Of a stretch of 63,537 nucleotides of DNA, positions 29,339 through 45,865 are shown one piece after another. The position numbers and the translations under genes are program-made. Source of the DNA: Collinsella tanakaei (lineage in GTDB: Bacteria > Actinomycetota > Coriobacteriia > Coriobacteriales > Coriobacteriaceae). How positions within the stretch are numbered: the stretch's first letter is position 1; each line of letters begins with the position of its first letter. Under the pieces are notes generated by a model that ran no database searches, was not told the DNA's origin, and worked only from the letters and a program-made list of their open reading frames with translations. The stretch lies in assembly GCF_016902615.1 (NCBI RefSeq), contig NZ_JACJMB010000013.1, forward strand, positions 1 through 63,537, given 5' to 3'.

Positions 29339-29542
29339 GTGGCTTCGCCTCAGCAAACAAAAAATCGTAATGGGTGGGGGTCGCTCCATACGGTAGGTGC
29401 TCGCGCTGCTTGCGGAGTATCCTGCGGAGCGGTTTTCTCATTCCCGGTACATGAGAGCACGGCACTGCCTCTCTTGGAATCCACCCGACAAATCAATATG
29501 TGCGCACCTGGACGCATGGGCTGGGGGAGTGATGTCGCATGA
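29339..29542 (+). CDS. Small leader frame overlapping wzz
   Basis: A 67-residue frame opens with GTG after GAGGAG (ten-base spacing) and ends in an ATGA overlap with the start of the Wzz-like gene. That coupling is the only evidence for translation; the product (beginning VASPQQTKNRNGWG) matches nothing I recognise and its composition is not typical of this genome's proteins. It may be a short coupled upstream peptide rather than a functional protein. Confidence 0.35.
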   Translation: MASPQQTKNRNGWGSLHTVGARAACGVSCGAVFSFPVHESTALPLLESTRQINMCAPGRMGWGSDVA

Positions 29543-30198
29543 CGCTCCTCGAGTTGCTCACGCTTCTTCGGAAGCATCTCAAATTCGTGATCGTGCTTCC
29601 CGTGGTGTGCGCGGTCGCCATGTTCTTCGTTGCGTATTTCATGATGGCAGACGAATATACGGCCGTCACGAGCATGTACGTGCTTGCGTCATCGGAGGAT
29701 CAGGGCGGATCGGCTCTGTCCACGGACCTGTCCGCCAGTCAGATGATCACCAACGACGTTGCCACCTTGCTGACGAGCAACCGTGTGGTGGCTGATGCGG
29801 CGCAAGAGCTAGGCCTCGAAAATCTCGGTGACTTCGACATCTCCGTTTCAAGCGAGACCACGACGCGCGTGCTGTCGGTATCCGTGACGGGCGAGAACCC
29901 CGTGGTCGCGGCGGATATTGCCAATGCCCTGGCAACCAACGTGTCGTCGATCGCTCAGGAAGTCATGAACGTCGAGAGCGTGAACATCGTCGACCTCGCC
30001 TCTGTGCCCAACAGCCCGAGCGGCCCGAACCGTGTGCTCTACGTTGCCGTTGCCTTCATGGCCGGTCTGCTCGCCGCTGTGGCGATTGTTGTTCTTGTCG
30101 ACATGCTCAACACGCGCGTTCGTAATGCGGAGCAGGTCGAGGAGCTGTTGGGTCTGCCCGTGATCGGGCGCATTCCCCAGGTGAAGGGAGGTCGATAG
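29539..30198 (+). CDS. Wzz/CpsC-type chain-length determinant
   Basis: The 219-residue membrane protein has an N-terminal helix (about 13-37, LKFVIVLPVVCAVAMFFVAY), an extracytoplasmic domain (about 38-165) and a C-terminal helix (about 172-192) followed by a cytoplasmic tail. It corresponds to the CpsC/YveK adaptor that positions and activates the BY-kinase and sets polymer length. The ATG overlaps the stop of a 67-codon frame. Next gene, three bases on, is the cognate kinase; the gene order wzz-kinase-phosphatase is the usual Wzy-dependent capsule head. Confidence 0.9.
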   Translation: MTLLELLTLLRKHLKFVIVLPVVCAVAMFFVAYFMMADEYTAVTSMYVLASSEDQGGSALSTDLSASQMITNDVATLLTSNRVVADAAQELGLENLGDFDISVSSETTTRVLSVSVTGENPVVAADIANALATNVSSIAQEVMNVESVNIVDLASVPNSPSGPNRVLYVAVAFMAGLLAAVAIVVLVDMLNTRVRNAEQVEELLGLPVIGRIPQVKGGR

Positions 30199-30201: not shown

Positions 30202-31125
30202 ATGGGACGCAGAAGGAACGCTGATGCCGACGAGCGCGCTCTGCAAAATGCTGCGAGCACGCTTCTGGCGAACATCCGCTTCGGCGGTGTGGATAAGCCG
30301 ATCAAGTCCATCGTCGTGACCTCTTCGGTTGCTGATGAAGGCAAAACAACGGTCACCTATCACCTTGCTCGCGCTATTGCCTCAAGCGGCAAGCGCGTGC
30401 TGGTGGTCGAATGCGATATGAGGAATCGCTCTGCAGCTCATGTTCTGGGTACGACCGCCCGTTTTGGAATCTATGCCGTGCTGTCCGGCAAGGTCGAGCT
30501 GGAGCAGGCGGTCGTCCAGACCAAGTGGAGTAACCTCTATTTCCTCGATTCCGAGCCTCAGATTCCGAATCCCTCCGACATCCTGTCCTCCATGCGCTTC
30601 CGTAGCCTTATGAGCGTCATGGAGCAGAAATTCGATTACGTGCTGCTGGATACGCCGCCAGTGGGGGCGTTCGTCGACGCTGCCGTCATCGCCGAGCTTG
30701 CCGATACGACCGTGATGGTCGTGCGCGAGAACTTCGTCAAGCGCGGCGAGCTCGTTGCCGCATACGATCAGCTCATGAAGGCCGGTGCGCATGTGGCGGG
30801 TGTCGTCATGAACATGTGTGATATGGAGACCAACAGTTATTACTCCTATTACGGCAAGGATGGCAAGCGCGGGTCAGCTGGGGGCAGCGGTCATGAGGGC
30901 CCGTCACTTCCGAAGGACCAGGGTGTCGACATGAACAAAGTCGCCGCCCAACCTGTTGTCGCTCAGCCAAAGCAGGTACGTAAGGCTGATCCCGGCGCAA
31001 CGCTCGAGTATGCATCTCTCGTAACGAATTCGAGTGCTGCCGCGGGTGTCGAGCCGGTGGTGCAGCCGGTCGGCAGGCATAGCGGTACGGTCGGTCAGCG
31101 GATGGCACCCGGCCGCTCGGTGTGA
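30202..31125 (+). CDS. CpsD-type bacterial tyrosine kinase
   Basis: The 307-residue BY-kinase has the Walker A-like SSVADEGKTTVTYHLA (about 34-49), Walker A' VLVVECDMRNRS (about 62-74), and Walker B YVLLDTPPVGAF (about 136-147). A tyrosine cluster, YYSYYG near 200, sits after the kinase core and would be the autophosphorylation site. The C-terminal ~90 residues form a low-complexity Ala/Val/Gln-rich tail longer than in typical CpsD. It is phosphorylated/dephosphorylated to regulate polymerisation. Three-base spacing from the Wzz-like gene. Confidence 0.92.
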   Translation: MGRRRNADADERALQNAASTLLANIRFGGVDKPIKSIVVTSSVADEGKTTVTYHLARAIASSGKRVLVVECDMRNRSAAHVLGTTARFGIYAVLSGKVELEQAVVQTKWSNLYFLDSEPQIPNPSDILSSMRFRSLMSVMEQKFDYVLLDTPPVGAFVDAAVIAELADTTVMVVRENFVKRGELVAAYDQLMKAGAHVAGVVMNMCDMETNSYYSYYGKDGKRGSAGGSGHEGPSLPKDQGVDMNKVAAQPVVAQPKQVRKADPGATLEYASLVTNSSAAAGVEPVVQPVGRHSGTVGQRMAPGRSV

Positions 31126-31136: not shown

Positions 31137-31793
31137 ATGAGAGACATGCATTGCCATATCCTTCCCGGTGTGGACGACGGTGCGCGCGATCTGGAGGAGA
31201 GCCTCGAGATGCTACGGGCGGCGAAATCCGCCGGCATCACCGAAATCGTGTGCACGCCCCACTGTCGCGACCCGTACTTCGACTATAACGCGATGTGCGA
31301 GGCCTTTGAGCGGCTTCGGGCCCATGCCGACGGCTTCCCCCTCAGCTTGGGCTTTGAGGTGTACCACAACAAGTTCATGGAGCTTGGGATGGAGTGGGCC
31401 GATCGGCTGGCATTCGAGGGCACGCGGGAGTTCCTTCTCGAACTCCCCGTCGGTGCGGATTCCAGGGAGTACCGCATGTTCGAGCAGACCATTTTCGAGC
31501 TGCGTGGACGGGGTTACAGCGTCATCATCGCGCATCCCGAGCGCTATCGGGCCATTCAGCAGGATCCGGAGGTGGCAAGGCGTCTGGTCCGTCAGGGATG
31601 CGCGCTGTGCGCGTCGGCTGACTTCGCCGCGCTCTCACCCTTCGATCGGACGCGGCGATCAGCAAAGCATCTGCTCGACGAGGGGCTCTATCGCCTTATC
31701 GCGAGCGACGCCCACTGCCCGGCTCACTACCGAACCTTCGAGAAGGTGAAGGGGCGTTATGGCGAGCGGCTGGGTGGACCGGCCAGCAGGTAG
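31137..31793 (+). CDS. CpsB/YwqE-type PHP phosphatase
   Basis: The 218-residue PHP-domain protein begins MRDMHCHILPGVDDGA, containing the HxH and DDG metal ligands, and has CTPHCRDPYF, IIAHPERYRAI and ASDAHCP, the remaining metal-binding histidines and aspartate. It dephosphorylates the BY-kinase. GGCGGTAAGGC precedes the ATG. It closes the three-gene regulatory head of the operon; a 226-base spacer with strong RNA hairpins follows before loaP. Confidence 0.92.
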   Translation: MRDMHCHILPGVDDGARDLEESLEMLRAAKSAGITEIVCTPHCRDPYFDYNAMCEAFERLRAHADGFPLSLGFEVYHNKFMELGMEWADRLAFEGTREFLLELPVGADSREYRMFEQTIFELRGRGYSVIIAHPERYRAIQQDPEVARRLVRQGCALCASADFAALSPFDRTRRSAKHLLDEGLYRLIASDAHCPAHYRTFEKVKGRYGERLGGPASR

Positions 31794-32019: not shown

Positions 32020-32535
32020 ATGCGTACGTATGTGTTGCAGGTTGTAACCGGCCGGGAGCACAAGACCGTGGCAGAGCTCGAGCATCTTTTGGGCGATCGG
32101 CTGCGGGGAAAGCTCTTCGTGCCGCGATATCGTTTCAAGAAAAGGATCAAAGGCACCTGGGAGATGACAGAACAGCTCCTGACGCCGGGCTACGTATTTA
32201 TCGAATCCTCAATGACGGATATCGAGGATATTGCCCGTGTTATTCGAGAGGCGCCCGCGTTCGCGCGGGTGCTTGCGCAAAACGGCAGAATCGTTCCCCT
32301 CAGCGCCGATGAGACGCAGTGGCTTGATAAGCTGACCGGGACTTCACGTGTGGTGGATCCATCGGTCGGGTTTATCGAGGGCGACCGCGTCGTTATCACG
32401 CAGGGACCGCTCGTCGGCCTTGAGTCGCAGATCGTGAAGATCGACCGGCACAAGCAGCTCGCCTACATCGAGGTGCGCCTACTGGGGCGCGTCAAGGTTG
32501 TCAAGGTTGGCGTCGAGATTGTCAGGAAAACCTAG
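32020..32535 (+). CDS. loaP: LoaP/NusG-family specialised antiterminator
   Basis: The 171-residue protein has an NGN domain (MRTYVLQVVTGREHKTVAELEH at 1-22, LLTPGYVFIESS near 55-66) and a KOW domain (SVGFIEGDRVVITQGPLVGLESQIVKID near 110-137), the usual size of LoaP. It travels with RNA polymerase and lets it read through terminators in long polysaccharide operons. The start is set by AAGGGGG seven bases upstream and by the family N-terminus; an in-frame ATG at 31948 would add 24 residues. It is inside, not at the head of, the operon. Specificity hairpins are visible at 31804-31863 and 32575-32596. Confidence 0.8.
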   Translation: MRTYVLQVVTGREHKTVAELEHLLGDRLRGKLFVPRYRFKKRIKGTWEMTEQLLTPGYVFIESSMTDIEDIARVIREAPAFARVLAQNGRIVPLSADETQWLDKLTGTSRVVDPSVGFIEGDRVVITQGPLVGLESQIVKIDRHKQLAYIEVRLLGRVKVVKVGVEIVRKT

Positions 32536-32618: not shown

Positions 32619-33260
32619 ATGAAGAAGAAGGTATTGTCGGTTGTCGCTACCGCAATGGTCCTTATGGCGTCTCTGCCGGGCGTTGCGATGGCGGCCCAGT
32701 TCAATAGCCCGAACGGCACGACGGTGACCGCTCCGAACACGAACGTTGCCCTCTCTGTTTCGGGTGACGTGACGAGCGCAAGCGGTAGCGGCTACATCTC
32801 GGTTGAACCGGTTTCCACCGTTGCCAGCAATGTACCTGCTGGCGTGACGCCGCTGGCGAGCTTCGAGGTCGTTGCCGTGGGCGACGTCCAGTTCACCAAG
32901 CTGACGCTGACCTTCTCTGTTGGCGCCCAGTATGCCGGTGCAAAGGCGACGGTGTACATCACCCACAGCGATGGTACCAGCGAGGTCGTGGAGACGACCG
33001 TTGCTTCCGATGGTACAGTCACGCTCGATGTCGACCGTCTGTCCGTCTTCAGTATCGTGGTCGACGAGTCCACGGTTTCCGCTGATGGCGCTTCCACCGG
33101 TTCCACTTCTGCTGCCGGTACCACCGGCACCGTGAAGGACACCTCGGCCACTTCTCCGGCGACCGGCGTTGTCATTCTTCCGATCGCTGGCGTGACCGCT
33201 GCCGCCGCTGCCGGCGCGGCCGCTGTCGCCGTCGAGCTTCGCAAGAAGATCTCCAAGTAG
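32619..33260 (+). CDS. Secreted sortase-substrate protein, SPATG sorting signal
   Basis: The 213-residue protein begins with a signal peptide (MKKKVLSVVATAMVLMASLP, cut near AMA at about residue 26). The rest is Thr/Ser/Val-rich, probably a beta-sandwich, with a Ser/Thr-rich stretch near 150-170. It ends in SPATG, a hydrophobic helix (VVILPIAGVTAAAAAGAAA) and RKKISK: a sorting signal of the NPxTG/LPxTG class. It should be exported and covalently anchored to the envelope. AGAAAGG lies eight bases before the ATG. It lies directly before a class B sortase gene, which is presumably its anchoring enzyme. Confidence 0.8.
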   Translation: MKKKVLSVVATAMVLMASLPGVAMAAQFNSPNGTTVTAPNTNVALSVSGDVTSASGSGYISVEPVSTVASNVPAGVTPLASFEVVAVGDVQFTKLTLTFSVGAQYAGAKATVYITHSDGTSEVVETTVASDGTVTLDVDRLSVFSIVVDESTVSADGASTGSTSAAGTTGTVKDTSATSPATGVVILPIAGVTAAAAAGAAAVAVELRKKISK

Positions 33261-33342
33261 GTTTTCGCTGCGCATGTTCATGCATCCTGGAGTTCATAGC
33301 CGGTAGCACCGTGTCCAGTAGAGACAACGGATTGAGGACCGC

Positions 33343-34161
33343 GTGGATAAGAATTCAACGTCAGAATCGTCTGAGAACGAAACCACGGGTAAGCGTAAGG
33401 GCATCATCCTGTTGGTTGGTGCCCTTATTGTCCTTGTGCTGATTGCCGGGGCAGGTGCGTTCTACCTTGTTTCTTCCCATATGTCTGCCGAGCGGGATAT
33501 CGAGCGCCAGCAGGAGCTGGCAAGGCCCGAGGAAGATGCCGAGGAAGAAACTACTGAGGATCTGCCCGCCAATCCCATTGACTTCGCTGCGCTCCAGGCT
33601 GAGAATCCCGATGTGTATGCATGGATTACTATCCCTGGGACGAATGTCGACTACCCCGTTGCGCAGAGCCAGGTGGATGACAACTACTACCTGCGCCGTA
33701 ATCTCGATGGGGAGTTTTCGGAGTACGGGACCGTCTATAGTCAGAGCATGAACGCGACTGACTTTTCAGATCCGGTGACGGTGCTGTACGGGCATAACTC
33801 CATCGATGGCATGATGTTCGGCACGCTTCACCGGTTCGAGGACAAAACGTTCTTCGATGAGCATGAGGAGATGTACATCTATACGCCGGGTCACATCCTG
33901 ACGTATCGCATCATTTCCGCGTATCGCTATGATGACCGCCACATCCTCAACAGCTTCAATATGAGTGATGTGGACGTGCGGCAGGAGTACTTCAATTTCG
34001 TGCTCGCTCCCACATCCATGGTGGTGAATGTTCGCGAGGGGGCTACGCTCAGCGTCGACGACAAAATCGTGCAGTTGAGCACTTGCCCCACTGAAGGATC
34101 TGCGAGCGGAAATCGCTATATCGTGACAGGGGTACTTGTTGACGACCAGCAAACATCCTAA
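33343..34161 (+). CDS. Class B-type sortase
   Basis: The 272-residue protein has a short charged N-terminus, a membrane helix (about 20-45, IILLVGALIVLVLIAGAGAFYLV), an acidic linker and a sortase domain: VDYPVAQSQVDDNYYLRRNLDG near 105-126, catalytic His in TVLYGHNSIDG near 150, catalytic Cys in VQLSTCPTEG near 247 and Arg in GNRYIVTGV. The layout (long insertion before the Cys, extracellular) is class B. GTG start is used. It is the sortase of the preceding SPATG protein, and its stop is directly followed by an LCP ligase gene. Confidence 0.9.
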   Translation: MDKNSTSESSENETTGKRKGIILLVGALIVLVLIAGAGAFYLVSSHMSAERDIERQQELARPEEDAEEETTEDLPANPIDFAALQAENPDVYAWITIPGTNVDYPVAQSQVDDNYYLRRNLDGEFSEYGTVYSQSMNATDFSDPVTVLYGHNSIDGMMFGTLHRFEDKTFFDEHEEMYIYTPGHILTYRIISAYRYDDRHILNSFNMSDVDVRQEYFNFVLAPTSMVVNVREGATLSVDDKIVQLSTCPTEGSASGNRYIVTGVLVDDQQTS

Positions 34162-34165: not shown

Positions 34166-35584
34166 ATGGGAAGCAAAATGACATCGGGTGTGGATTTTGA
34201 CCCCATGCATAACGATAATACTTCGCGACACGCAGGACGTCACTTCAAGCAGCCATCTTCACAACAGATGGTTGATGCTACGGTTTCGTCGGATCTGGGC
34301 GGTGTAGTGGCCTCAGAACGGAAGCCTGATTCTCCTGCGGTGGAAGAAGCCCCTGTCAGAGGAAAGCGTTTCAAGCGCGCGGCAACCACCCAAGATGGCA
34401 ACGAGCCTCAGGGCGGTGAAAGCTCGAAGGTAGTTGTGCGCACAGCGGAGGAGACATCTCAGCTAGAACGTTCTTCTCGCGATGTGTCCGGTGGAGGTTC
34501 TGGCTTCGCGGTAATCTCTGAATTGCCGGAAACCAACCACGCAGGGACGAAACGTAGAAGGCGCCGCAAGATGCCTCTTCCGGCAAAGATTGCGATTATC
34601 GTTGTCGCCGTTTTGCTGGTCACGGGCGGTGGTACTGCCCTTGCCCTGCGATTCATGGTCGATCAAGGCGCATCGGCGATTCGTGAAGCATCTAATCCGG
34701 AAGACATTCAGACGGCAGAAGATGCCTCCACTGAAGACAAGGGTTTGACGGTTGAGTACAACGGCACGACGTATCGCTACAACGAGAACATCGTTTCAAT
34801 CGTTGTCATGGGATACGACCGTCGCGCTGATGTGAGCGTCACCGGTGCTGCCGGACAGGCTGATGCCGTGATGGTGGTGGCATTCGATACCGAGACGGGC
34901 GGCATGCGTGTCATCGGTATTTCTCGTGACACCATGGTGGATGTGGATGAGAAGGTTGGCGATGCATTTATCGGCCAGGATAGGATGCAGCTTGCCTTGT
35001 CGTTCAGCTACGGCGATGGATACGGGACGAGTGCAGACAATGTCGTTCGTGCGGTGTCTCGTATCCTGTACAACATGCCCATGAATTACTATGTGGCGCT
35101 CGACATGAGCGGCATCGGTCCTCTTAACGATGCCATCGGTGGCGTGACGTTGACGCCGTTGGCTACGATTCCCGACACATCAATTATCGAGGGTGTAGAG
35201 ACGACGCTTTACGGATATGAGGCGATGCGATATGTGCAGTATCGCGACACTTCGTATTTGGAGAGTTCGCTCGATCGTCAGGCACGACAATCGCAGTATT
35301 TGCAGGCGTTCTTCTCGCAGGCTCTTTCCGCTGCGAAGGGTGATCCCGCGGTACTTATCGGACTGTATCAGACGGCGCTTGAGTATGGATTCACTAATCT
35401 CGGGGCAAGTGAGTTTGCCTATCTGGCAAGCTTGCTCGTTGAGCATGGTATGGACAGTCTTGATGTGACTACGCTTGCTGGTACGCCTTCGAAGGGTGTC
35501 CAGTATGTGGAGTATGAGCTGGATCAGGCGAGTGTCTATCAGACGGTGCTTGATGTGTTTTACACGCCGGTTGCTGAGGAGTGA
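34166..35584 (+). CDS. LytR-CpsA-Psr (LCP) family ligase
   Basis: The roughly 472-residue protein has a long charged cytoplasmic N-terminus (Arg/Lys/Glu/Ser-rich, about 1-145), one membrane helix (about 150-175, PAKIAIIVVAVLLVTGGGTALALRF) and an LCP domain: IVVMGYDRRADVSV near 225, ADAVMVVAFDTETG, VIGISRDTMVDVDE near 255 with catalytic Arg/Asp, and YVQYRDTSYLESSLDRQARQSQYL near 365 with the phosphate-binding arginines. It transfers lipid-linked glycan to peptidoglycan. The chosen ATG (34166) follows the sortase stop by four bases; GTG/TTG or ATG at 34178 are alternatives. Last gene before a 490-base gap. Confidence 0.88.
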   Translation: MGSKMTSGVDFDPMHNDNTSRHAGRHFKQPSSQQMVDATVSSDLGGVVASERKPDSPAVEEAPVRGKRFKRAATTQDGNEPQGGESSKVVVRTAEETSQLERSSRDVSGGGSGFAVISELPETNHAGTKRRRRRKMPLPAKIAIIVVAVLLVTGGGTALALRFMVDQGASAIREASNPEDIQTAEDASTEDKGLTVEYNGTTYRYNENIVSIVVMGYDRRADVSVTGAAGQADAVMVVAFDTETGGMRVIGISRDTMVDVDEKVGDAFIGQDRMQLALSFSYGDGYGTSADNVVRAVSRILYNMPMNYYVALDMSGIGPLNDAIGGVTLTPLATIPDTSIIEGVETTLYGYEAMRYVQYRDTSYLESSLDRQARQSQYLQAFFSQALSAAKGDPAVLIGLYQTALEYGFTNLGASEFAYLASLLVEHGMDSLDVTTLAGTPSKGVQYVEYELDQASVYQTVLDVFYTPVAEE

Positions 35585-36077: not shown

Positions 36078-36875
36078 ATGACGAATGACGTCATGAGGAG
36101 GACCGCGGCTGCCACGGCCCGGGACGATGACGCCTTGATTGAGCTCGGCGATCTCACCGGTGGCCAAAGCGAAGCATTTTGCTGCCATGACTCCATGATG
36201 GCCAATGCAACTGACACTGAGGGATACGACCCCGAGGTCGTGGCCGCCGCCGAGAGGCTCTCGAGGCGTTACGCATACCGCTTCGTCAAGCGCGCCTTCG
36301 ACATCATCTTCAGCTTGATAGTCCTGATCTGCTTCTGTTGGCTCTTCGCCATTGTTGCTATCGCCGTCAAGCTCGACGACCCGAAGGGCCCTGTCCTCTT
36401 CAGGCAGAAGAGGGTCACCAAGGACGGGCGGGAGTTCACCATCTACAAGTTTCGGAGCATGTTTGCTGACGCCGAGGAGCGCCTCGCAGAGCTCAGAGCC
36501 CTCAACGAGAAGACCGGGCCTGTCTTCAAGATGCGTGACGATCCGCGCGTGACACGCGTGGGCCGCGTGCTGCGTCGCGTCTCGCTCGACGAACTGCCTC
36601 AGTTCGTCAATGTCCTGAAGGGCGACCTCTCGGTGGTGGGTCCTAGGCCCGCATTGCCCTCCGAGGTCGCGGAGTACACGCCGTACCAGCGCCAGCGCAT
36701 TCTCGTGAAGCAGGGTATTACCTGCTATTGGCAGACGCGCAGAAACCGCGACTCAATCACTTTCGACGAGTGGGTCGACCTGGACCTTCTCTACATCAAG
36801 AAGTGCAGTCTCTGGACCGATTTCAAGCTTATTATCCAGACCGTGGGCTGTGTCCTTACCTTCCAGGGGGAGTAG
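36078..36875 (+). CDS. Initiating polyprenyl-phosphate sugar phosphotransferase
   Basis: The 265-residue protein is of the WbaP/CpsE C-terminal type: one membrane helix (FDIIFSLIVLICFCWLFAIVAIAV, about 75-98), then LFRQKRVTKDGREFTIYKFRSM near 112-133 and the catalytic DELPQFVNVLKGDLSVVGPRPAL near 173-195. It lacks the N-terminal five-helix domain of WbaP. It moves a hexose-1-phosphate from a nucleotide sugar to undecaprenyl phosphate, starting the repeat unit. Start is uncertain: ATG at 36078 has a GGTGG upstream, and ATGs at 36093 and 36195 are alternatives. Confidence 0.9.
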   Translation: MTNDVMRRTAAATARDDDALIELGDLTGGQSEAFCCHDSMMANATDTEGYDPEVVAAAERLSRRYAYRFVKRAFDIIFSLIVLICFCWLFAIVAIAVKLDDPKGPVLFRQKRVTKDGREFTIYKFRSMFADAEERLAELRALNEKTGPVFKMRDDPRVTRVGRVLRRVSLDELPQFVNVLKGDLSVVGPRPALPSEVAEYTPYQRQRILVKQGITCYWQTRRNRDSITFDEWVDLDLLYIKKCSLWTDFKLIIQTVGCVLTFQGE

Positions 36876-36878: not shown

Positions 36879-37997
36879 GTGCGCATAGCGATGATCGGAC
36901 AGAAGCGCACGGGGTCGCGCGAGGGCGGCGTGGAGGTGGTGGTGACCGAGCTTGCTCGCCGTATGGCGGTGCTCGGCCACGAGGTCACCTGCTACGACCG
37001 CTCGGGTACCGACGTCAACGGCAGGCCTGCGCCGAGCGAGCCCTACGAGCTCGACGGCGTCCGCGTGGTGCCGGTCCGTACCATAGATGCCAAGGGCATG
37101 GCGGCACTGAGTTCAAGCTATTTTGCTACGCTTGCGGCGATCAAGGACCATCCTGACGTCATTCACTACCACGCCGAGGGCCCTTGCGTCCCGCTGCCGC
37201 TCGCGCGTCGCGCGGGAATCCGCACGGTCTCGACCATCCACGGGCTCGACTGGCAGCGTGCCAAGTGGGGCAAGCTGGCGAGCGCCTACATCAAGATGGG
37301 GGAGAGGAACGCCGCCCGTCGCGCCGACGAGGTCATCGTGCTCTCCCGCTCGGCCCAGAGCTACTTCAGAGAGGTGTATGGACGTGAGACCCGCTTCATC
37401 CCCAACGGCATAGAGCCCAAGGAGCCGCGTCCCGCGCGCGTCATCGCCGAGCGCTGGGGGCTCTCACGAGGCTCTTATGTGCTCTTCCTCGGACGCATCG
37501 TGCCCGAGAAGCGCCCCGAGCTTCTCATCAAGGCCTTCCGCGGTCTCGACACCGACAAGCGCTTGGTCATCGCCGGCGGGTCATCGGATACCTCTGAGTA
37601 CCTTGACGAGATCGAGCGGCTCGCCGCCGGCGACCCACGGATCATCCTGACGGGTTTCGTCCAGGGGGAGGCCCTGGAGGAGCTCTACTCCAACGCCTAC
37701 TGCTACGTGCTGCCCTCCGACGTGGAGGGCATGCCGATGAGCCTTTTGGAGGCCATGGCGTACGGGCGCTGCTGCGTCACGAGCGACATCCCCGAGTGCG
37801 CGGACGTGACCGGGGGGACGGGGATCACGTTCCCCAAGGGAGACGCAGAAGGGCTGCGAGGGGTTCTCGCCTTCCTTCTTGCAAACCCGGAGGAAACCGA
37901 GGTGAAAGGCGACTCCGCACGGATGCGCGCCCGCGAATCCTTCGGCTGGGACAACGTCGTTCGCTGGACGCTCGAGCTCTACGGAGGAGATCAGTGA
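36879..37997 (+). CDS. Family 4 glycosyltransferase
   Basis: The 372-residue GT-B protein has an N-terminal acceptor domain with GGVEVVVTELARRM and a C-terminal donor domain: YVLFLGRIVPEKRPELLIKAF near 200, VQGEALEELYSNAYCYVLPSDVEGMPMSLLEAMAYGRC near 260-298, containing the E-x7-E donor motif (Glu of EGMPMSLLEAMA). It adds a sugar to a lipid-linked acceptor. GTG start, three bases after the previous stop. Its last codons overlap the next GT gene (GTGA), so the two are translated together. GC-rich, unlike the cassette that follows. Confidence 0.9.
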   Translation: MRIAMIGQKRTGSREGGVEVVVTELARRMAVLGHEVTCYDRSGTDVNGRPAPSEPYELDGVRVVPVRTIDAKGMAALSSSYFATLAAIKDHPDVIHYHAEGPCVPLPLARRAGIRTVSTIHGLDWQRAKWGKLASAYIKMGERNAARRADEVIVLSRSAQSYFREVYGRETRFIPNGIEPKEPRPARVIAERWGLSRGSYVLFLGRIVPEKRPELLIKAFRGLDTDKRLVIAGGSSDTSEYLDEIERLAAGDPRIILTGFVQGEALEELYSNAYCYVLPSDVEGMPMSLLEAMAYGRCCVTSDIPECADVTGGTGITFPKGDAEGLRGVLAFLLANPEETEVKGDSARMRARESFGWDNVVRWTLELYGGDQ

Positions 37998-39283
37998 GAG
38001 TACTGCTCGTCAACAAGTTCCACTATCGCAAGGGTGGGGCCGAGACGTATTACTTTGAAATCGGCTCTGCCCTTCAGGACATGGGCCATGAAGTTGCCTA
38101 CTTCTCTATGCACCACCCTAACAATCTTTCGTGCGATCAGGAGAGGTACTTCGTTACCCAGCGCGAGTACAACGACGTTAGAAACCCCTTCAAGGCGGTT
38201 GCAGACGGCCTCGCGTTGGTCTACTCGTTTGAGGCGAAGCGCAATTTTCAAGCGCTTTGCGATGACTTCCGCCCAGACGTCATCCACCTCAACAACGTGC
38301 ACCGGCAGATAACCCTGTCCATTCTGGATGTGCCGTACTTGAATGAGCACCACATCCCAGTGGTCTACACGGCGCATGACTACGTTACCATTTGCCCTGG
38401 CTATCTCATGCTTGACGGGCAGGGCAGGGTCTGCGACCGCTGTCTGGAGGACGGGCGCTACCGGCACTGCATCGAGAACAAATGCATCAAGGGTTCTCGT
38501 TCCAAGAGCGCGCTTGCAGCTCTCGAGGCTTTCTTCAACCGGTCGAGGCATATGAATGACCGAATTGATCGCGTCATAGCCCCATCGCGCTTCATGGCTG
38601 AGAAGCTCTTGGAGGGTGGGTGGCCCGAGGACAAGGTTACTGTTCTGCAAAACTTTGCAAGCGACGCCATTCTCGACCGCGCTCGTACGGGCGGACTGGA
38701 TCAGACTGATCGAGAACACCCCTACCTTCTCTATTTCGGGCGCATTTCCAAGGAGAAGGGCGTCGGCATGCTTTTGGATGCGTTTCTCGCAGCCATGCCC
38801 TTCCTTCAGGGCTGGCGCTTGGTAATCGCTGGAGACGGACCTGAGTTCGGGGCGTTGAAGGATAAGGTCCGCTCGTTAGGCCCTCGCTGCTCCGTCGAGC
38901 TTGTCGGCTACCAGAGGAGCGAGAGACTGCAGAACTACGTCGGGCGAGCCTCTCTCGCGGTCACGAACTCCATGTGCCGGGAGAACATGCCGTTCTCGGT
39001 AATCGAGGCGTTTGCGGCGGGCACGCCCGTCGTGGGGTCTCGCATCGGCGGCATTCCGGAGCTGGTGTCCGAAGGGGAGACAGGTTTCTTGTGCGAGCCA
39101 GGTGACGTCTCATCGCTTACTAAGGCGATTATTCGAGGCGTGTCGTTTTGTGGTGACCTTGACGCGTATCGCGCTATGCAAGGTCGCTGCCGTGACTACG
39201 TGGTGGAGAACTGTGACCAAAGTCATTTCATGGAGCGTCTTGTTGAAATATATCAGAAGGAAATCGAAATTAAACGGTGTTAG
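37994..39283 (+). CDS. Family 4 glycosyltransferase
   Basis: The 429-residue GT-B enzyme starts VRVLLVNKFHYRKGGAETYY, has IPVVYTAHDYVTICPGYL near 117, four Cys around 143-162 (CDRCLEDGRYRHCIENKC, likely a zinc or disulfide site) and the donor motif FGRISKEKGVGMLLDAF near 249, ENMPFSVIEAFAAGTPVVGS near 330-350. GTG at 37994 overlaps the upstream TGA and has GGAGGAG five bases upstream. It is the last GC-rich gene of the locus; its final ~40 bases are already AT-rich, so the junction with the imported cassette is near 39270. Confidence 0.9.
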   Translation: MRVLLVNKFHYRKGGAETYYFEIGSALQDMGHEVAYFSMHHPNNLSCDQERYFVTQREYNDVRNPFKAVADGLALVYSFEAKRNFQALCDDFRPDVIHLNNVHRQITLSILDVPYLNEHHIPVVYTAHDYVTICPGYLMLDGQGRVCDRCLEDGRYRHCIENKCIKGSRSKSALAALEAFFNRSRHMNDRIDRVIAPSRFMAEKLLEGGWPEDKVTVLQNFASDAILDRARTGGLDQTDREHPYLLYFGRISKEKGVGMLLDAFLAAMPFLQGWRLVIAGDGPEFGALKDKVRSLGPRCSVELVGYQRSERLQNYVGRASLAVTNSMCRENMPFSVIEAFAAGTPVVGSRIGGIPELVSEGETGFLCEPGDVSSLTKAIIRGVSFCGDLDAYRAMQGRCRDYVVENCDQSHFMERLVEIYQKEIEIKRC

Positions 39284-39411
39284 CGCAGCTTACAGTTGAA
39301 AATAAAGATTGGAATTCTTGGATTATCGCGGGTATAAAGAATAACGCTGACTAATACAACGCTTTCTGGGTGATGTTTAGTTCGCACATGTGAAACATAT
39401 AAGTCTATAGA

Positions 39412-40659
39412 GTGAATATTGATAAAGTGGCTGATAATATGACTGATAAGAATTTAGAAGAGAAGAAAAAAAAACATATAAGAAGTCTGGAACTTGATGT
39501 ATATAAACAACTGACCTATTCATTCTTTCTGCTAACGTTCATAGCTAAGGCGTTAACAGATGGAATATTCATTACATTAGGTCAAAAAGGGTTAATTACA
39601 AATTCTAAGTATATGGCAATGGGCGGTGTAATTTTTTTTGGCCTGGGCTATATGATAAAAAATCGGAGATTCGATAACTTTTGGAATGAATTTAAGCAAT
39701 TGTTTGCACTATTTGCAGCTATAGCATTTTTTACGTGTGTGTTAATCATATACAGAAGGAATTATGCAGCATGGCAGATAAGAGATTTATTAAATCTCTT
39801 TACGCCAATGATATTTGCATATGTCGTGCTCAACACCCTTGATAGTGGAGATATTGTTAAAGGGATGCGAATAGCATTATATTTTTCAATATGTGGATAC
39901 GTTATCCAACTAATTTTAAAAGGAACGACTATACAAGAAATTATATCAGCATCAGATTATTCAAAATCGCTTTCGCCCCTTGAGTCTAACGATTTCGCAG
40001 CTTTATCAATTATGCTGTGCTTCTTTTTCTGCTATATTCGCGACAATAAAATCGATACAATTGCTTCATTTTTGTTTGCTATAGCTACATTTAAAAGACT
40101 TGCAATGATCTTTGCCCTACTCGCCTTTGTTCTTCCAAAAATCATTAATACAAGAAAGGCCATTCCAAGAGGCTATAGATTCTTATTGGTAATTGTTCTT
40201 ACACTAATAACAATTATATATTTATATCTATTGTTACCATTTAGTCCGGATGTTCAAATCTTTGGCTACAATTTGAAATATCTATCAATGGGAAGAGCTC
40301 ATTTTCTAACTGAATTATTTATAAACAACTATAAATCTTTTGGCTATGGTTCAGTGGAAGCAACACTGGGTCACAGTCTAGAGATGTATTTGATTCGGCT
40401 GTGCTTAGAGCTATCACCTATTGCAGTTATTGTATTTATTACGTGCATGATGAATATTGCATGGACAAATATATACTGTGTAATACTCATAATCTTCCAA
40501 TTAATCAATTTAATAACAGCAGATTCAATTAGTGCGATATTTGCATGGGAAGTAATGTATATATTGCTTGGTTTAGTTCATGGAACTTGTAAAAATGACA
40601 CCGGAATTAATTATGCGATTATTGAAATGAATTCTAGAAGAAAGAATTTACCGAGCTAG
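39412..40659 (+). CDS. Wzy-type polysaccharide polymerase (AT-rich)
   Basis: The 415-residue protein has ten to twelve hydrophobic helices and a large periplasmic-type loop near 250-300 (RKAIPRGYRF... then FSPDVQIFGYNLKYLSMGRAH), the architecture of O-unit polymerases. There is no conserved motif, as is usual for Wzy, and the identity is by topology and context (next to Wzx and glycosyltransferases). GTG start at 39412 has no good ribosome site; ATG at 39439 (MTDKNLEEKK) is an alternative. The first gene of the cassette, about 35% GC by eye. Confidence 0.7.
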   Translation: MNIDKVADNMTDKNLEEKKKKHIRSLELDVYKQLTYSFFLLTFIAKALTDGIFITLGQKGLITNSKYMAMGGVIFFGLGYMIKNRRFDNFWNEFKQLFALFAAIAFFTCVLIIYRRNYAAWQIRDLLNLFTPMIFAYVVLNTLDSGDIVKGMRIALYFSICGYVIQLILKGTTIQEIISASDYSKSLSPLESNDFAALSIMLCFFFCYIRDNKIDTIASFLFAIATFKRLAMIFALLAFVLPKIINTRKAIPRGYRFLLVIVLTLITIIYLYLLLPFSPDVQIFGYNLKYLSMGRAHFLTELFINNYKSFGYGSVEATLGHSLEMYLIRLCLELSPIAVIVFITCMMNIAWTNIYCVILIIFQLINLITADSISAIFAWEVMYILLGLVHGTCKNDTGINYAIIEMNSRRKNLPS

Positions 40660-40667
40660 GAGAATGT

Positions 40668-41465
40668 ATGTTTTCATATATTACAATTTGTACAGACGAT
40701 ACTTACGTTCCAGGAGTAATTGCGCTAAATAAGTCCCTGCACATGGTGGCGTCAAAATATAACCTCAACGTGCTTGTGGATCCTCTTTCTGTGTCAGAAA
40801 ATTGTATTAGACATTTAAAAAATGCTGATGTATCTGTCATTTTTGCTGAACATGTTGAAATTAATGACTACATTAGAAAACAAAACACACTAAACCAGTC
40901 ACCTAATTGGAGTAACACTCTTTTCAAATTACGAATATTTGGACTCGAACAATTCGATAAAATAATATATCTAGATTCCGATATGATAATCATTCAAAAT
41001 ATCGATAGTTTATTTTCCCTAGAACATATGACCAGTGTTCAAGCTGGCAATATGTTCGACAATTCTTGGGTTAAGTTAAATTCTGGATTAATGGTAGTAC
41101 ATCCTAAGAAACAACTTGAGGAAGAATTAATCGCGCTTCTATCTAGTGAGTTTCTTAATCAGATGCTTAATGGAAAAGGAATTGGGGATCAGGATGTAAT
41201 AAATTGGTACTATTCAGATTGGCCACAGATTTCGAAACTTCATTTACCCGAGTCTTATAACCAATTTGTGACATTGTTACCTCAGTACCAACATTATGGT
41301 TATTTACATAATTTAAACGATGTCTATGTCCTGCATTATGTTGGAAAAACTAAACCGTGGAATTATGGGCTGTGTGAGTATCTTCATTTGATTGCCAGGG
41401 CACTTAGATGGCGATCGATATTAGAGATTAAAGCCGTTTGTATATTTTGGAAGATTATTGGGTAA
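40668..41465 (+). CDS. Family 8 glycosyltransferase
   Basis: The 265-residue GT-A enzyme begins MFSYITICTDDTYVPGVIAL (nucleotide-binding), has the DXD motif in IIYLDSDMII near 103-112 and the GT8-type GLMVVHPKKQ and QDVINWYYSDWPQ near 176-190, then HYVGKTKPW near 225. It probably transfers a galactose or glucose residue with retention of configuration. GAGAATG is close to the start, with GGAG eight bases before. AT-rich. Confidence 0.88.
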   Translation: MFSYITICTDDTYVPGVIALNKSLHMVASKYNLNVLVDPLSVSENCIRHLKNADVSVIFAEHVEINDYIRKQNTLNQSPNWSNTLFKLRIFGLEQFDKIIYLDSDMIIIQNIDSLFSLEHMTSVQAGNMFDNSWVKLNSGLMVVHPKKQLEEELIALLSSEFLNQMLNGKGIGDQDVINWYYSDWPQISKLHLPESYNQFVTLLPQYQHYGYLHNLNDVYVLHYVGKTKPWNYGLCEYLHLIARALRWRSILEIKAVCIFWKIIG

Positions 41466-41469
41466 TAGT

Positions 41470-42507
41470 ATGAATACAAGTTCAAGCGTAAAGATACAAA
41501 AGAATTTTTATAGAGATATAGATGGGTACAGGTGTATCGCTGCACTTTCAATTATCGCAATGCATGTATATGTTAAAGGCGAGTATACCGATATAGAGCC
41601 GTCAATTAGTTTGGCAATTTCGAAACTTGGAATATTTGTAACCCTATTCTTTATAATTAGCGGATTCGGAATGTGCTGTGGGTATTTTGAAAAAATCAAG
41701 AATAGCGAAATATCCGTTGAAACATTTTATAGTAGAAGAATAAAAAAAATACTACCATTCTTTTCCTTATTAGTAATTATTGATATTATTGTTGAACGCT
41801 TTGCTTCGAGTTCTTTATGGGAGGGCATTGCAAATCTTTCGCTTGTTTTCAATCTATTGCCTGACTTAAACATCCAGGTTATCGGAGTGGGATGGGCGCT
41901 CGGTGTAATTTTTCTTTTCTATTTGCTTTTTCCTTATTTTGTGTTTCTTCTTAGTTCAAAACCACGAGCTTGGATTGCTTTTGCCCTGTCTATAATTCTT
42001 AGTCTTTCGTGTATATTTTATTTCCATAAGGCCGATGGACAGATCGATGACAGAAGATTTATTTATCAGGCAATGTTTTTTGTGGCTGGTGGGTTACTGT
42101 TTCTTTATAGAAATCAAATCGAGGGAATTAGTGGACGAAATTCAATACTTCTTAAAATCCTCTGTATTGGAGTATTGCCGCTGATAGTAATTAGCGTTCC
42201 TTCCTGGCTTTCTAACATAAAGCAATTAGTTATATGGATTCCATGGATGATGCTTGCTATTCATAGAGAACATAGATTGTTCACCAATAAATTCACTTCA
42301 TTTATCAGTCGGATTAGTTTGGAGATGTATTTATCTCATCTATTTATATTTCAAATAGTGAATCTTATTGGAATCCCACATTTGTTTGGATTTGGGATAA
42401 CGTCGTATATATTCACGTATGTTTTAGTCTTGGTAGGTACAGCTGTGTTTTCCCTCGTTGCTCAAAAAATCATTCAATGTGTATGTGCTGCCGCTTCAAG
42501 AAAATAA
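41470..42507 (+). CDS. Acyltransferase 3 family membrane protein
   Basis: The ~345-residue protein has about ten membrane helices. The first contains the family signature GYRCIAALSIIAMHVYV (about 17-33, conserved R and H of ACYL_TRANSF_3), and a conserved GVGWALGVIFLFYLLFP near 143-159. It would O-acetylate the polysaccharide or attach succinyl groups. The start is taken at 41470, overlapping no gene; an in-frame TTG at 41458 is weaker. It overlaps or abuts the GT8 stop at 41465, so coupling is likely. Confidence 0.85.
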   Translation: MNTSSSVKIQKNFYRDIDGYRCIAALSIIAMHVYVKGEYTDIEPSISLAISKLGIFVTLFFIISGFGMCCGYFEKIKNSEISVETFYSRRIKKILPFFSLLVIIDIIVERFASSSLWEGIANLSLVFNLLPDLNIQVIGVGWALGVIFLFYLLFPYFVFLLSSKPRAWIAFALSIILSLSCIFYFHKADGQIDDRRFIYQAMFFVAGGLLFLYRNQIEGISGRNSILLKILCIGVLPLIVISVPSWLSNIKQLVIWIPWMMLAIHREHRLFTNKFTSFISRISLEMYLSHLFIFQIVNLIGIPHLFGFGITSYIFTYVLVLVGTAVFSLVAQKIIQCVCAAASRK

Positions 42508-42542
42508 CAATAGTTATGCATTAATCAAAATTAGGAGTTCAA

Positions 42543-43640
42543 ATGAAGGTTTTATTTGTTAACCCGATTTTATATACACCTGAGAATGCTCAGATACCTA
42601 AAGTTAATAGCATAGAAGATACGATGGCATGTAGCTTATGCAGAGCATTTGAACGGAAAGGAATTGACGTCACTCTTGCAGCAGCTTCAGAATGGAAACC
42701 TTTGCATGATCCAATATGCTCGTATAAAATTATTTGGCTAAAAAGTTATTTCAAGAAGTTTTTTCCTATACATAGGATCCCTGTGAATCTTGGGCTAATT
42801 AATACACTGCTTTCAAATAGCTATGACGCCGTTATTTCCAGTGAAGTTTTTTCTATTGATACGTTGATTTGTGTGATATTTGCACGTAAAAAAACAATTA
42901 TATGGCATGAAATGGCCAAGCACAATCGTATGGGCAAAGGCCTGCTTTCACGTTTTTGGTATAATGTTATTGCAAGAACGTTTATGCGCGGAATTCCAGT
43001 GATAGCTAGAAGTGCTCAGGCGCGACAATTTATTTCAAAATACTGCAATAATGTCTCCCCCACAATTATTGAGCATGGTGTTGATTTTGATATATTTTCC
43101 TTAGCACAAGGAAAAACTGATACATTTTGCGTTGTTTCGCAACTTATAAAAAGAAAACGTATTGATAAGATCATAATTGCATTCTCCAGGTATCATTACA
43201 GCATCAATCAATCATGCAAGCTATATATTATTGGAAGTGGACCAGAGAAAGAAAGTTTAATTCAATTAACTTCTAAACTAGGCATAGCAAATGTAGTGTC
43301 CTTTATGGGGCAATTAAATCATTTGAAGCTGCAGCATTATCTTTCAGAAGCTAAAGCTATGCTCGTATATACCGAAAAAGACAATAGTATGATTTCAATC
43401 GTTGAATCAATAGCTAGTGGGACGCCCGTTGTCACCACTTCAGTGCCTCTGAATTCATCATATATTCGAATGTATAGTCTTGGGGTTGTCAATGACAATT
43501 GGGATGAATCAGATCTAAGAAATATTGACAGCAATTTAAATTTCTACGTTTCAAATTGCTGTCAATATAGAAAAGCAATGTCAACTGATTATAAAGTTAA
43601 TCAATTTATCAATTGTATCGAAACAGAGTTGAGAATATGA
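42543..43640 (+). CDS. Family 4 glycosyltransferase
   Basis: The 365-residue GT-B enzyme begins MKVLFVNPILYTPENAQIPK, with VSQLIKRKRIDKIIIAFSRYH near 202-222, LYIIGSGPEKESLIQL and the C-terminal donor motif VYTEKDNSMISIVESIASGTPVV near 278-300 (E-x7-E). AGGAG lies eight bases before the ATG. Its stop overlaps the next start (ATGA at 43637). The AT-rich composition is unlike the two upstream GT4 genes, which indicates separate origin. Confidence 0.88.
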   Translation: MKVLFVNPILYTPENAQIPKVNSIEDTMACSLCRAFERKGIDVTLAAASEWKPLHDPICSYKIIWLKSYFKKFFPIHRIPVNLGLINTLLSNSYDAVISSEVFSIDTLICVIFARKKTIIWHEMAKHNRMGKGLLSRFWYNVIARTFMRGIPVIARSAQARQFISKYCNNVSPTIIEHGVDFDIFSLAQGKTDTFCVVSQLIKRKRIDKIIIAFSRYHYSINQSCKLYIIGSGPEKESLIQLTSKLGIANVVSFMGQLNHLKLQHYLSEAKAMLVYTEKDNSMISIVESIASGTPVVTTSVPLNSSYIRMYSLGVVNDNWDESDLRNIDSNLNFYVSNCCQYRKAMSTDYKVNQFINCIETELRI

Positions 43641-44749
43641 AACGAATAATGGTCGACTGTTATCTGGCTCATAATTTTGGGGATGACTTGTTCTTAATTA
43701 CCCTTGCATCAAATTTCCCTAAGGTTCAATTTCAAGTAATAGCAAATCAATCTTATAACTTCATAGAAAGGCTTTGTCCCAATATCAATATCTTGCATTG
43801 CGTCAATGACAAGTGCTTAAATTTACTGAAGCGGCTTAAGAATAAGCGCGATGAACTATTAATTATTCACAAAGCAGATGCACTTGTCACAATTGGTGGT
43901 TCTTTATATATAGAAAAACCCTCAGGTTGTAATCCACGATTGTTAATAGATAAATACCGTAGATATTTTCGAGATGTTGTAAGAGCAAATAATGCAAAGA
44001 ATTACTATGTTATGGGAGCAAATTTCGGCCCATACTCCTCTAAGTCTTTCCTTAGGTTCTATACTCGCTTCTTTGAAAAATTCTGTGAAGATGTATGTTT
44101 CCGCGATAGATTCTCTGCTAATCAATTCTCTAGTGTAACTAATGTTAGATATGCCCCTGATATTTTGTTTGGAGCGGGATTGCCTAATGTCTCAAAGCGA
44201 CATCAGGTATTTATTTCGGTCATTGATCTACAGAATTGTGATCATTTCGGTAGACTTTCTGAAAAATGTGAAGCATATGAACAAATGATTCTGGAATATA
44301 TCAAACGATATGCCGATATAGAGTATAAAATAATACTATGTTCTTTTTTTGGGTCTGATGGGGATTCTTTGGCAGTAAAGAGAATTTCTGTCAAAGCTAG
44401 TGAAGCTAATATTTCTATCCAAGAATTGTATTATACAGATAATATAGAAGAGATTTTAAGCGAAATTTCTATGTCAGAGATTGTAATAGGTACAAGGTTT
44501 CATGCTACGGTTATCGGCTTAGCTGCTGGGGCTGCAGTAGTACCTATTATTTACAGCACAAAGACTTTGCACGTGTTGGATGATTTGGGGTTCAATCGAA
44601 GGAATACGATTGATCTCAGTAGTGATGAATGGTTATCCTTAGATTTGAACACGTTGCCTGACCCGCTAACTTTCAACGTTGATCGAGAAAAAGCCCTTTC
44701 AAAATGCCAATTCTCTGCACTCAGTAAGTTTATTGAATCTAGCGAATAG
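43637..44749 (+). CDS. Polysaccharide pyruvyl transferase family protein
   Basis: The 370-residue protein begins MKRIMVDCYLAHNFGDDLFLITLA, which has the family's NxGDD segment, and has NYYVMGANFGPYSS near 123-136 and IVIGTRFHATVIGLAAGAAVVPI near 284-306, the GxRFHA motif of WcaK/PssM-type transferases. It may place a pyruvate ketal on the polysaccharide, adding negative charge; some members transfer other groups. Overlap ATGA with the previous gene indicates translational coupling. AT-rich. Confidence 0.85.
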   Translation: MKRIMVDCYLAHNFGDDLFLITLASNFPKVQFQVIANQSYNFIERLCPNINILHCVNDKCLNLLKRLKNKRDELLIIHKADALVTIGGSLYIEKPSGCNPRLLIDKYRRYFRDVVRANNAKNYYVMGANFGPYSSKSFLRFYTRFFEKFCEDVCFRDRFSANQFSSVTNVRYAPDILFGAGLPNVSKRHQVFISVIDLQNCDHFGRLSEKCEAYEQMILEYIKRYADIEYKIILCSFFGSDGDSLAVKRISVKASEANISIQELYYTDNIEEILSEISMSEIVIGTRFHATVIGLAAGAAVVPIIYSTKTLHVLDDLGFNRRNTIDLSSDEWLSLDLNTLPDPLTFNVDREKALSKCQFSALSKFIESSE

Positions 44750-44773
44750 CATAAGTTTGCATAGAAGACTAAG

Positions 44774-45817
44774 GTGAACGATAAAAAGATGAACGATAAA
44801 ATCATTAGCATCATAATACCCGTATACAACACTGAGAAAGATTACTTACGAAAATGTTTAGAGCCATTTCTTTTGAATGAAGACCCACGAATTGAAATTG
44901 TCGTTGTCGATGATGGTTCAAATTCGGAAACGGCTGCATTGCTTTCAAATATGACTTTCGGTTGTGTAAATCAACTTAAGATTGTTCACAGGGCTAATGG
45001 TGGCCAAAATGCAGCTAGAAATACGGGCATAAATGAAGCAATCGGAGAATATATAGAATTTCTCGATAGCGATGACTATATTGATTGGAATTCACAACTG
45101 GAAATAATTCGCGTTCTTGAGATTTACCATCCTGACTTACTTTCTTTTCGCGCTCAACAAATGAGTGCTTCAGGTAAAACAATATGTACTTGGGGTCCGG
45201 TAGCTGAAGGAGAAGCTTATCGAGAAATCTCAAAAAGCGAAATGTTGATGGAGTGTTCATCGTTATGGATGCAGATATATAAGCGCAGTATATTTCGACA
45301 GTATGAGATCAACTTGATAGAAAGCATATATATAGGTGAAGATATTGCTGCAGTTGTCCCCCTCATTCTAGCTTCAAAGACGCTCGGAGTTGTCGATAGT
45401 ATCCTTTATCACTTTGTTGAAAGACCGACCAGTGTCACTCATAAGGTAAATACGAATCGTTTACTCGACATATTGAAAGCTTTTGAATCCATTATTTCTT
45501 GGATGAATCAGAATGCTAATATTTGTGAATTCGATTATAAGGAATCGATGTCCTTAGTTGAGAGGCTCGCCATTAAGCACGTTTGTTTTGCAGGGATTGC
45601 TAGGGCGGTAGAGTGGGATGGACCTTGCTCGACGGCTATTCCTAAATTGTTATCATGGATGGAACTACATTTTCCCAACTGGAGGAATAACTCCTTGTTT
45701 AAATCTGATCCTACTATGCACCATTTAAATTACTACTTGATATTAAATGGTTACTACAGAACATATCTCCTGTTCTTAAAAACAAAGCGTAAAATTAAGT
45801 GCCTATTTTTTAGGTGA
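44774..45817 (+). CDS. Family 2 glycosyltransferase
   Basis: The 347-residue GT-A enzyme has IISIIIPVYNTEKDYLRKCL near 10-29, IVVVDDGSNSETA near 44, RANGGQNAARNTGINEA near 75 and IEFLDSDDYIDWNS near 97-110. It transfers a sugar to the growing repeat unit. GTG start with AAGG upstream. It ends 48 bases before the flippase gene. Confidence 0.9.
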   Translation: MNDKKMNDKIISIIIPVYNTEKDYLRKCLEPFLLNEDPRIEIVVVDDGSNSETAALLSNMTFGCVNQLKIVHRANGGQNAARNTGINEAIGEYIEFLDSDDYIDWNSQLEIIRVLEIYHPDLLSFRAQQMSASGKTICTWGPVAEGEAYREISKSEMLMECSSLWMQIYKRSIFRQYEINLIESIYIGEDIAAVVPLILASKTLGVVDSILYHFVERPTSVTHKVNTNRLLDILKAFESIISWMNQNANICEFDYKESMSLVERLAIKHVCFAGIARAVEWDGPCSTAIPKLLSWMELHFPNWRNNSLFKSDPTMHHLNYYLILNGYYRTYLLFLKTKRKIKCLFFR

Positions 45818-45865
45818 TCTTATTAGTTTCGACCTTTCTTACTGTTTTATGTATTGGGTTGCTTT

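Follow-up and report, generated by a model that had tools for sequence, protein, structure and literature searches.

A sortase, its predicted small secreted substrate and a divergent LCP ligase form a conserved gene module in a capsule cluster of Collinsella tanakaei

What is the role of a sortase that lies, together with a substrate of its own, next to the polymer-attachment ligase of a capsule cluster? The question arises from contig NZ_JACJMB010000013.1 of Collinsella tanakaei, of which positions 1 to 63,537, the whole stretch of 63,537 nucleotides that was analysed, are called the window here. The genome containing it comprises 2.45 Mb in 92 contigs. We refer to a 213-aa secreted protein with an SPATG motif as SUB and to a class B-type sortase as SRT. 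On the + strand, the order is CpsC, CpsD, CpsB, LoaP, SUB, SRT, LCP ligase, sugar-1-P transferase and the rest of the capsule genes:

29539..30198, + strand: CpsC/Wzz chain-length protein (PF02706)
30202..31125, + strand: CpsD tyrosine autokinase (TIGR01007, over cut-off)
31137..31793, + strand: CpsB phosphatase (PF19567)
32020..32535, + strand: LoaP antiterminator (NF033641, 151.6 bits, above the cut-off of 125)
32619..33260, + strand: SUB, small secreted sortase substrate of 213 aa, proposed as capsule acceptor or anchor (ORF; conserved family)
33343..34161, + strand: SRT, class B-type sortase of the LCP-linked subfamily, 272 aa (PF04203, TIGR03064, tree)
34166..35584, + strand: divergent LCP glycopolymer ligase (PF03816, LytR_cpsA_psr domain, 66.9 bits, cut-off 24.6)
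36078..36875, + strand: polyprenyl-phosphate sugar-1-P transferase (PF02397)
36879..47305, + strand: remaining capsule cluster with glycosyltransferases, an acyltransferase, a pyruvyl transferase, a Wzx-like flippase and a possible Wzy

The original prediction had SUB and the sortase between loaP and the LCP ligase, and this is where the ORFs and the profile matches put them, all four on one strand. It also had the pair inside a capsule cluster, in good agreement with the Pfam and NCBIfam matches, which assign Wzy-type capsule genes to both sides. CpsB/C/D, an initiating transferase and Wzx, by which a Wzy-type capsule locus is recognised, are all found in the window. The possible Wzy (39412-40659) is a 415-aa protein in the place of the Wzy polymerase, with no Pfam match. 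Between the LCP gene and the sugar-1-P transferase gene, about 490 bases (35585-36077) of the + strand carry no long gene and no Rfam match; an Rfam scan of the window from 24 to 50 kb gave no match at gathering scores. Since promoter and terminator counts between 28.85 and 37 kb are close to the shuffled mean (4 versus 3.6 and 9 versus 6.4), we claim no operon boundary.

The sortase was predicted to be of class B. This is borne out by a PF04203 score of 42.7 bits (cut-off 26.6), by the 15 distinct PDB sequences which an SRT profile matches at E<=0.001, most of them named sortase B, and by the presence of the His, Cys and Arg residues. The NCBIfam class B model TIGR03064 is narrowly missed (148.7 bits, just below the equivalog cut-off of 153.75), and thus we use the name class B-type. 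SRT carries a hydrophobic anchor at its N terminus, and its expected catalytic residues are invariant in 27 sequences:

33793..33795, + strand: SRT His151, expected catalytic
34084..34086, + strand: SRT Cys248 in QLSTC, expected catalytic
34114..34116, + strand: SRT Arg258, expected catalytic

The same genome holds four PF04203 matches, three of them above the cut-off, and the next best place found with SRT as query shows 37% identity. The nearest relative is encoded in Collinsella tanakaei ET10. In 148 relatives' genomes (own included), SRT scores form two groups: an upper one of 27 places in 26 genomes (E<=2.4e-66, 42-100% identity), and the remaining matches at 6e-31 or weaker. SUB relatives occur in 26 of the 148 genomes, and 21 of these are among the 26 with an upper-group sortase. 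Scanning 84,980 species genomes with the sortase gave 245 relatives, of which the best 80, 35 from Coriobacteriia and 45 from Bacillota, make up the 80-locus set used below. A tree was built by a quick method from 110 sortases, i.e., these 80, the window, three more of the group and 26 controls. A branch with support 99 splits off the 26 controls, and 4 changes along the tree suffice for the label "LCP next door". Judged by sequence, SRT belongs to its own subfamily of Coriobacteriia and Clostridia, apart from the control sortases. In a Lachnospiraceae-family sample, 39 of 200 genomes hold such a sortase at E<=1e-50.

The gene order proposed for a search in other Coriobacteriia, sortase and then LCP, is found there and in Bacillota as well: 75 of the 80 loci (best 80 of 245 relatives) have an LCP gene within 1 kb downstream on the same strand. 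The five exceptions among these best 80 are L118, L132, L136, L153 and L170, and the contigs of L153 and L170 end within 600 bases downstream of the sortase. As controls, we took 40 class B sortases outside the subfamily from the same order, 39 from relatives' genomes and one from the own genome. None of the 40 has an LCP gene within the 4.7-8.5 kb covered around each, a few of them lying on short contigs (L183 has only about 0.5 kb downstream). The LCP profile of the control scan recovers the canonical LCP of the own genome at 2e-29. As the order is conserved in relatives and no control carries an LCP gene, the link between sortase and LCP is not due to chance. Within the own genus, two LCP genes are present in 6/6 genomes with the sortase versus 2/37 without it. 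In 30 short Lachnospiraceae-family loci, the LCP gene lies within 1 kb downstream (17), directly upstream (8) or is absent (5, one of them cut), and in an overlapping sample of 20 wider loci it lies within 1 kb of the sortase in 19. Sets of sortase and LCP, in part with a substrate, are doubled within one locus in L123, L138 and L145, and also in L280 and L292; the two substrates in L123 differ in length (100 and 179 aa).

Subfamily sortases without LCP are found in L077 (the same as L118), L081 (the same as L132), L136, L078, L085 and L086. All of these except L136 come from Enteroscipio, Eggerthella and, judged by genus code, their kin and Gordonibacter, and look like one lineage. Downstream of the sortase, these five loci encode an SPKTG protein of about 235-255 aa without N-terminal Ser-Pro.

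Sortase, substrate and LCP, the triad for short, constitute a real, conserved module, and the trio recurs in two bacterial phyla. How far the capsule genes belong to it is a separate matter. The original prediction took the link to be coincidental if the pair were frequently found outside capsule loci with no co-expression, and in part this outcome is seen: only 12 of the 80 loci (best 80 of 245), all of them Coriobacteriia, have CpsB, C or D in the stretch of up to 9 kb covered, and when 95 neighbours of eleven triads (one triad having CpsBCD) were scanned with Pfam, no family was common to more than two. LoaP is found near the pair in a minority of cases (5 of the best 80 of 245). Two observations speak for the link. 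The first comes from the 20 wider Lachnospiraceae-family loci, 17 of which have CpsB, C or D near the sortase. The order CpsB-CpsD-CpsC-SRT-LCP-SUB was found in L278, L284 and L296 of the Lachnospiraceae-family sample, while in L287 the sole capsule-head match is to the CpsD profile, 6.3 kb away. The second is the co-occurrence with CpsB, which is encoded in 24/26 relatives' genomes with the sortase versus 49/122 without it (Fisher p 6e-7, only a guide because the genomes are related). Outside the own genus the counts are 19/20 versus 20/85, and within it there is no difference (5/6 versus 29/37). The triad often, but not always, has capsule genes as partners. The predicted tie of a dedicated sortase-substrate pair to the polymer-attachment ligase stands, whereas its constant partner is the LCP gene and not the capsule operon, and the emphasis should be placed on the LCP rather than on the latter.

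A phenotype is available from Mediterraneibacter gnavus (M. gnavus), in the part of the report considered here (PMC13121745). There, srtB4 lies in the CPS cluster RGna_12030-12060 and is needed for capsule display, as demonstrated by deletion and complementation, and disruption of the LCP gene RGna_12040 gives the same capsule-display phenotype. We take srtB4 to be RGna_12035, the only sortase tag inside RGna_12030-12060. That report considers it unlikely that the sortase makes CPS directly; it mentions candidate targets near its sortase genes and, in the part considered, names no SrtB4 substrate.

As for the substrate of the window, the original prediction described a small secreted protein with an SPATG sorting signal. 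A signal peptide, the SPATG motif, a hydrophobic segment and a basic tail are indeed accommodated within its 213 aa:

32619..32693, + strand: SUB signal peptide, predicted cut AMA|AQ after residue 25 (simple cleavage scorers)
32706..32711, + strand: SUB Ser30-Pro31 near the mature N terminus, hypothetical acceptor or recognition site (alignment of relatives)
32718..33068, + strand: SUB beta-sandwich domain, residues 34-150, about 115 residues (AlphaFold model)
33153..33167, + strand: SPATG sorting motif of SUB (sequence; SPxTG-like in most relatives)
33168..33257, + strand: SUB hydrophobic segment and basic tail, ELRKKISK (sequence)

SUB matches no Pfam or NCBIfam family at E<=1. In an alignment of 20 rows of SUB relatives, Ser30 is invariant and Pro31 is conserved in at least 90%; Arg208 and Lys209 of the tail are invariant in the same alignment. 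The AlphaFold model has a mean pLDDT of 77 overall and of 82-97 in 10-residue blocks within the beta domain, and a fold search with it gave no PDB match at E<=0.001.

Of the 80 loci (best 80 of 245), 62 encode, on the strand of the sortase and no more than 4.5 kb from it, a protein that has both a signal peptide and a sorting signal; a like search of the 40 control loci gave 2 sorting-signal proteins. A laxer look adds three substrates (L129, L134 and L162, two of them cut). After both looks, 15 of the best 80 of 245 hold no complete substrate nearby; one of these is cut right at the sortase, and L124 and L128 encode a protein that lacks the hydrophobic tail. Substrate lengths range from 71 to 255 aa, with the exception of a second protein of 738 aa in L091, one of 711 aa in L148 and one of 285 aa in L288, a locus without LCP. 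Their middle parts vary, from the beta domain of Coriobacteriia to other domains, low-complexity Ser/Thr/Pro stretches or almost nothing. In several substrates, only about 18-30 mature residues are left: counted from the predicted signal cut to the sorting site, about 22 in L159 and L165 (74 aa) and about 18 in L294 (71 aa). This is too little for an adhesin or an enzyme, and enough for an acceptor.

In three Eggerthellaceae loci (L124 at 8645-8671, L128 and L148), a small protein upstream of the sortase stops right after the motif and has no hydrophobic tail; the ends read SPKTGDAL, SPQTGDAL and SPKTGGIL. In L124, a hairpin with a T run follows the small protein. The sortases of L124, L128 and L136 start with a lipobox-like LAGC or LGGC.

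These sizes bear on two alternative explanations. According to one of them, the substrate is an ordinary surface protein, an adhesin or immune-facing, which has its own sortase and simply accompanies polysaccharide genes. It is common for sortase and substrate genes to be adjacent, and triads occur away from capsule genes, too. We nevertheless regard this explanation as improbable: many substrates are too small for adhesins, the LCP adjacency (75/80 for the best 80 of 245 versus 0/40) is left unexplained, and loss of the sortase in M. gnavus takes the capsule off the surface (PMC13121745, as far as covered here). According to the other, the LCP attaches the capsule to peptidoglycan in the ordinary way, while the sortase anchors an accessory protein which aids retention or positioning non-covalently, e.g., as organiser, spacer or glycan-binding tether. 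This would equally account for the sortase phenotype of M. gnavus (PMC13121745, same scope), and the beta-sandwich of the Coriobacteriia substrate, well predicted in the model, would suit such a protein. Against it, the substrate middle differs by lineage and is nearly absent in several cases (about 18-30 mature residues), and SUB has no fold match at E<=0.001; we consider an accessory protein of this kind unlikely. For the same reason, the SUB model being without a PDB match at E<=0.001, the nucleator and the glycan-binding tether suggested by the original prediction gain no positive support.

The two ends of the substrates were considered separately. Ser-Pro is found within the first 12 mature residues of 49 of 59 substrates versus 9 of 197 other signal-like ORFs according to one scorer. 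The 59 include one CpsC false positive (L117) and two substrates from LCP-less loci (L118 and L132); the 197 are any ORFs of the same loci with a signal-like start, including membrane proteins and some spurious ORFs. A second scorer yields 58 of 66 substrates beside an LCP, where one of the 66 is again the CpsC of L117, and L101 and L123 hold the SP with the cut misplaced. In the Lachnospiraceae-family sample, Ser-Pro was counted by eye in only 7 of 14 LCP-adjacent substrates; being missing in the other 7, it was dropped as a universal substrate feature. Ser-Pro is, on these sequences, common but not universal, and an acceptor role for it is hypothetical.

At the other end, the C-terminal tail is conserved in Coriobacteriia, which could hint at signalling: substrate processing would be the signal, with the cleaved C-terminal fragment or the wall-bound peptide reporting the envelope state and controlling capsule synthesis. 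C-peptide signalling has a precedent in streptococci, and CpsBCD regulators are close by in the Lachnospiraceae-family sample. However, the tail is not conserved between phyla and there is no recurring sensor kinase among the top 25 of 135 neighbour families of the eleven triads, so that a signalling role appears very improbable.

We now turn to the ligase, whose usual reaction is the direct bond of a polymer to a peptidoglycan sugar. The start of the LCP gene is probably the ATG at 34166, the listed ORF beginning with TTG at 34136. We name it divergent because it misses the cut-off of NCBIfam TIGR00350 (57.8, cut-off 62.3). Besides this divergent gene (69.9 bits), the own genome has one other LCP gene, which is canonical (143.9 bits) and lies on a different contig. 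Two positions of the window LCP, mapped by us onto TagT and LcpA, are of interest:

34856..34858, + strand: Gln (AGQAD) where canonical LCPs have Arg, position of TagT R95 and LcpA R128
34925..34927, + strand: Arg of SRD, position of TagT R118 and LcpA R149 (Arg in 76/76 triad LCPs)

In the partner LCPs, three aligned active-site positions carry Arg in 76/76, and the fourth, equivalent to R95, carries Gln in 68, Met in 4, Arg in 3 and Glu in 1 of the 76. For canonical LCPs, 12 of 31 loci were recovered and 6 align at the columns used; these have Arg at the R95 position in 6/6, and one other row has Asp at the SRD column. Mutational data come from LcpA of Actinomyces oris (A. oris), in the part of PMC6381275 considered here: glycosylation of GspA requires the Arg residues that correspond to TagT R118 and R227, whereas the one corresponding to R95 is dispensable for protein glycosylation. 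Since TagT R95 is described there as distal to the wall teichoic acid substrate, the exchange of R95 to Gln, taken alone, is no sign of a protein acceptor.

With triads often found at a distance from capsule genes, the polymer they handle may not be capsule. The LCP would then glycosylate the substrate with a polymer not made by the neighbouring capsule genes, and the capsule would be attached elsewhere, for which the own genome has a second, canonical LCP. This we find quite improbable, given that CPS genes accompany the triad both in the window and in the Lachnospiraceae-family sample, and that disruption of the LCP gene of the cluster impairs capsule display in M. gnavus (PMC13121745, same scope).

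From these observations, we propose that the three genes act as one envelope-attachment module, in which the LCP loads a polymer on the small protein and the loaded protein is attached to the wall by the sortase; our confidence in this is evenly divided. Among the three roles considered by the original prediction, the protein-glycan conjugate comes out best, since it agrees with the tight linkage of LCP and sortase, with the small and variable substrates, with LcpA-GspA of A. oris and with the capsule phenotype of M. gnavus. As to its chemistry, we infer secretion, sorting, the protein as LCP acceptor, the capsule as polymer and the order of the steps. After export by Sec, SUB would remain in the membrane through its C-terminal segment. 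Polymer linked to polyprenyl pyrophosphate, in the window most likely made by this capsule cluster, would be taken by the divergent LCP and transferred to a hydroxyl residue of SUB, plausibly one in a Ser/Thr/Pro-rich stretch, either close to the mature N terminus or ahead of the SPxTG motif. The class B-type sortase would cut SPAT|G and join the loaded protein to peptidoglycan. A small protein would thereby link the capsule to the wall, in place of the direct bond to a peptidoglycan sugar that LCP enzymes usually make. The absence of Ser-Pro in 7 of 14 Lachnospiraceae-family substrates and in a few others counts against a conjugate, as do triads away from capsule genes, the lack of a CpsB excess within the own genus, the loci with no complete substrate and the subfamily sortases without LCP.

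Tentatively, and with some doubt, this may be put more generally: in a sizeable minority of Coriobacteriia and Lachnospiraceae, a specialised LCP could ligate capsular polysaccharide to a small protein dedicated to this purpose, at its smallest a peptide of about 18-25 residues, which a dedicated class B-type sortase fixes to the wall, and this could be the reason why M. gnavus needs its sortase. Such a mode of capsule attachment is without description in the literature found by our searches. These searches, with most results judged from brief entries, gave no sortase-LCP linkage beyond PMC13121745 and the A. oris work, and the word "sortase" is absent from the part of the E. lenta capsule paper PMC13174815 that was available. 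From a biological point of view, capsule retention by gut commensals bears on colonisation, phage resistance and inflammation. The small gene beside the sortase-LCP pair is a concrete candidate for the missing substrate or mechanism in M. gnavus, and, if the proposal is true, LCP enzymes acting on a protein acceptor would have a second example besides A. oris.

How does the module compare with known systems? Streptococcal-type Wzy capsule loci contain CpsB, CpsC, CpsD, LCP, sugar-1-P transferase and Wzx. The same genes are found here, but the window additionally has a sortase and a substrate ahead of the LCP gene. A parallel in the way of working is exosortase/PEP-CTERM in exopolysaccharide loci, where a sorting enzyme with dedicated C-terminal signals is tied to polysaccharide genes; the enzyme is, however, unrelated, the envelope is Gram-negative and there is no LCP. 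With class B sortases (TIGR03064; PDB 5b23, 4y4q, 4ux7, 1qwz and others), SRT shares the sequence family, the His/Cys/Arg residues and an SPxTG-type motif, which is reportedly also used by a C. difficile sortase. Unlike them, it falls in a subfamily of its own, slightly below the NCBI equivalog cut-off, and is LCP-linked. The srtB4 cluster of M. gnavus (PMC13121745, in the part considered) likewise combines a class B sortase gene and an LCP gene within a CPS cluster, but in a different phylum, and it is likened here by gene arrangement, not by kinship of the SrtB4 sequence. In A. oris, according to the part of PMC6381275 considered, the LCP gene lies immediately downstream of the gene of a sortase-anchored protein, and LcpA glycosylates this protein, GspA. 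An LCP gene beside a sortase substrate gene is thus common to both, with the sortase gene in between here. A. oris relies on the housekeeping sortase SrtA and on a glycan described in that source as coming from an unknown pathway, whereas the window has a dedicated class B-type sortase, a capsule cluster and a divergent LCP.
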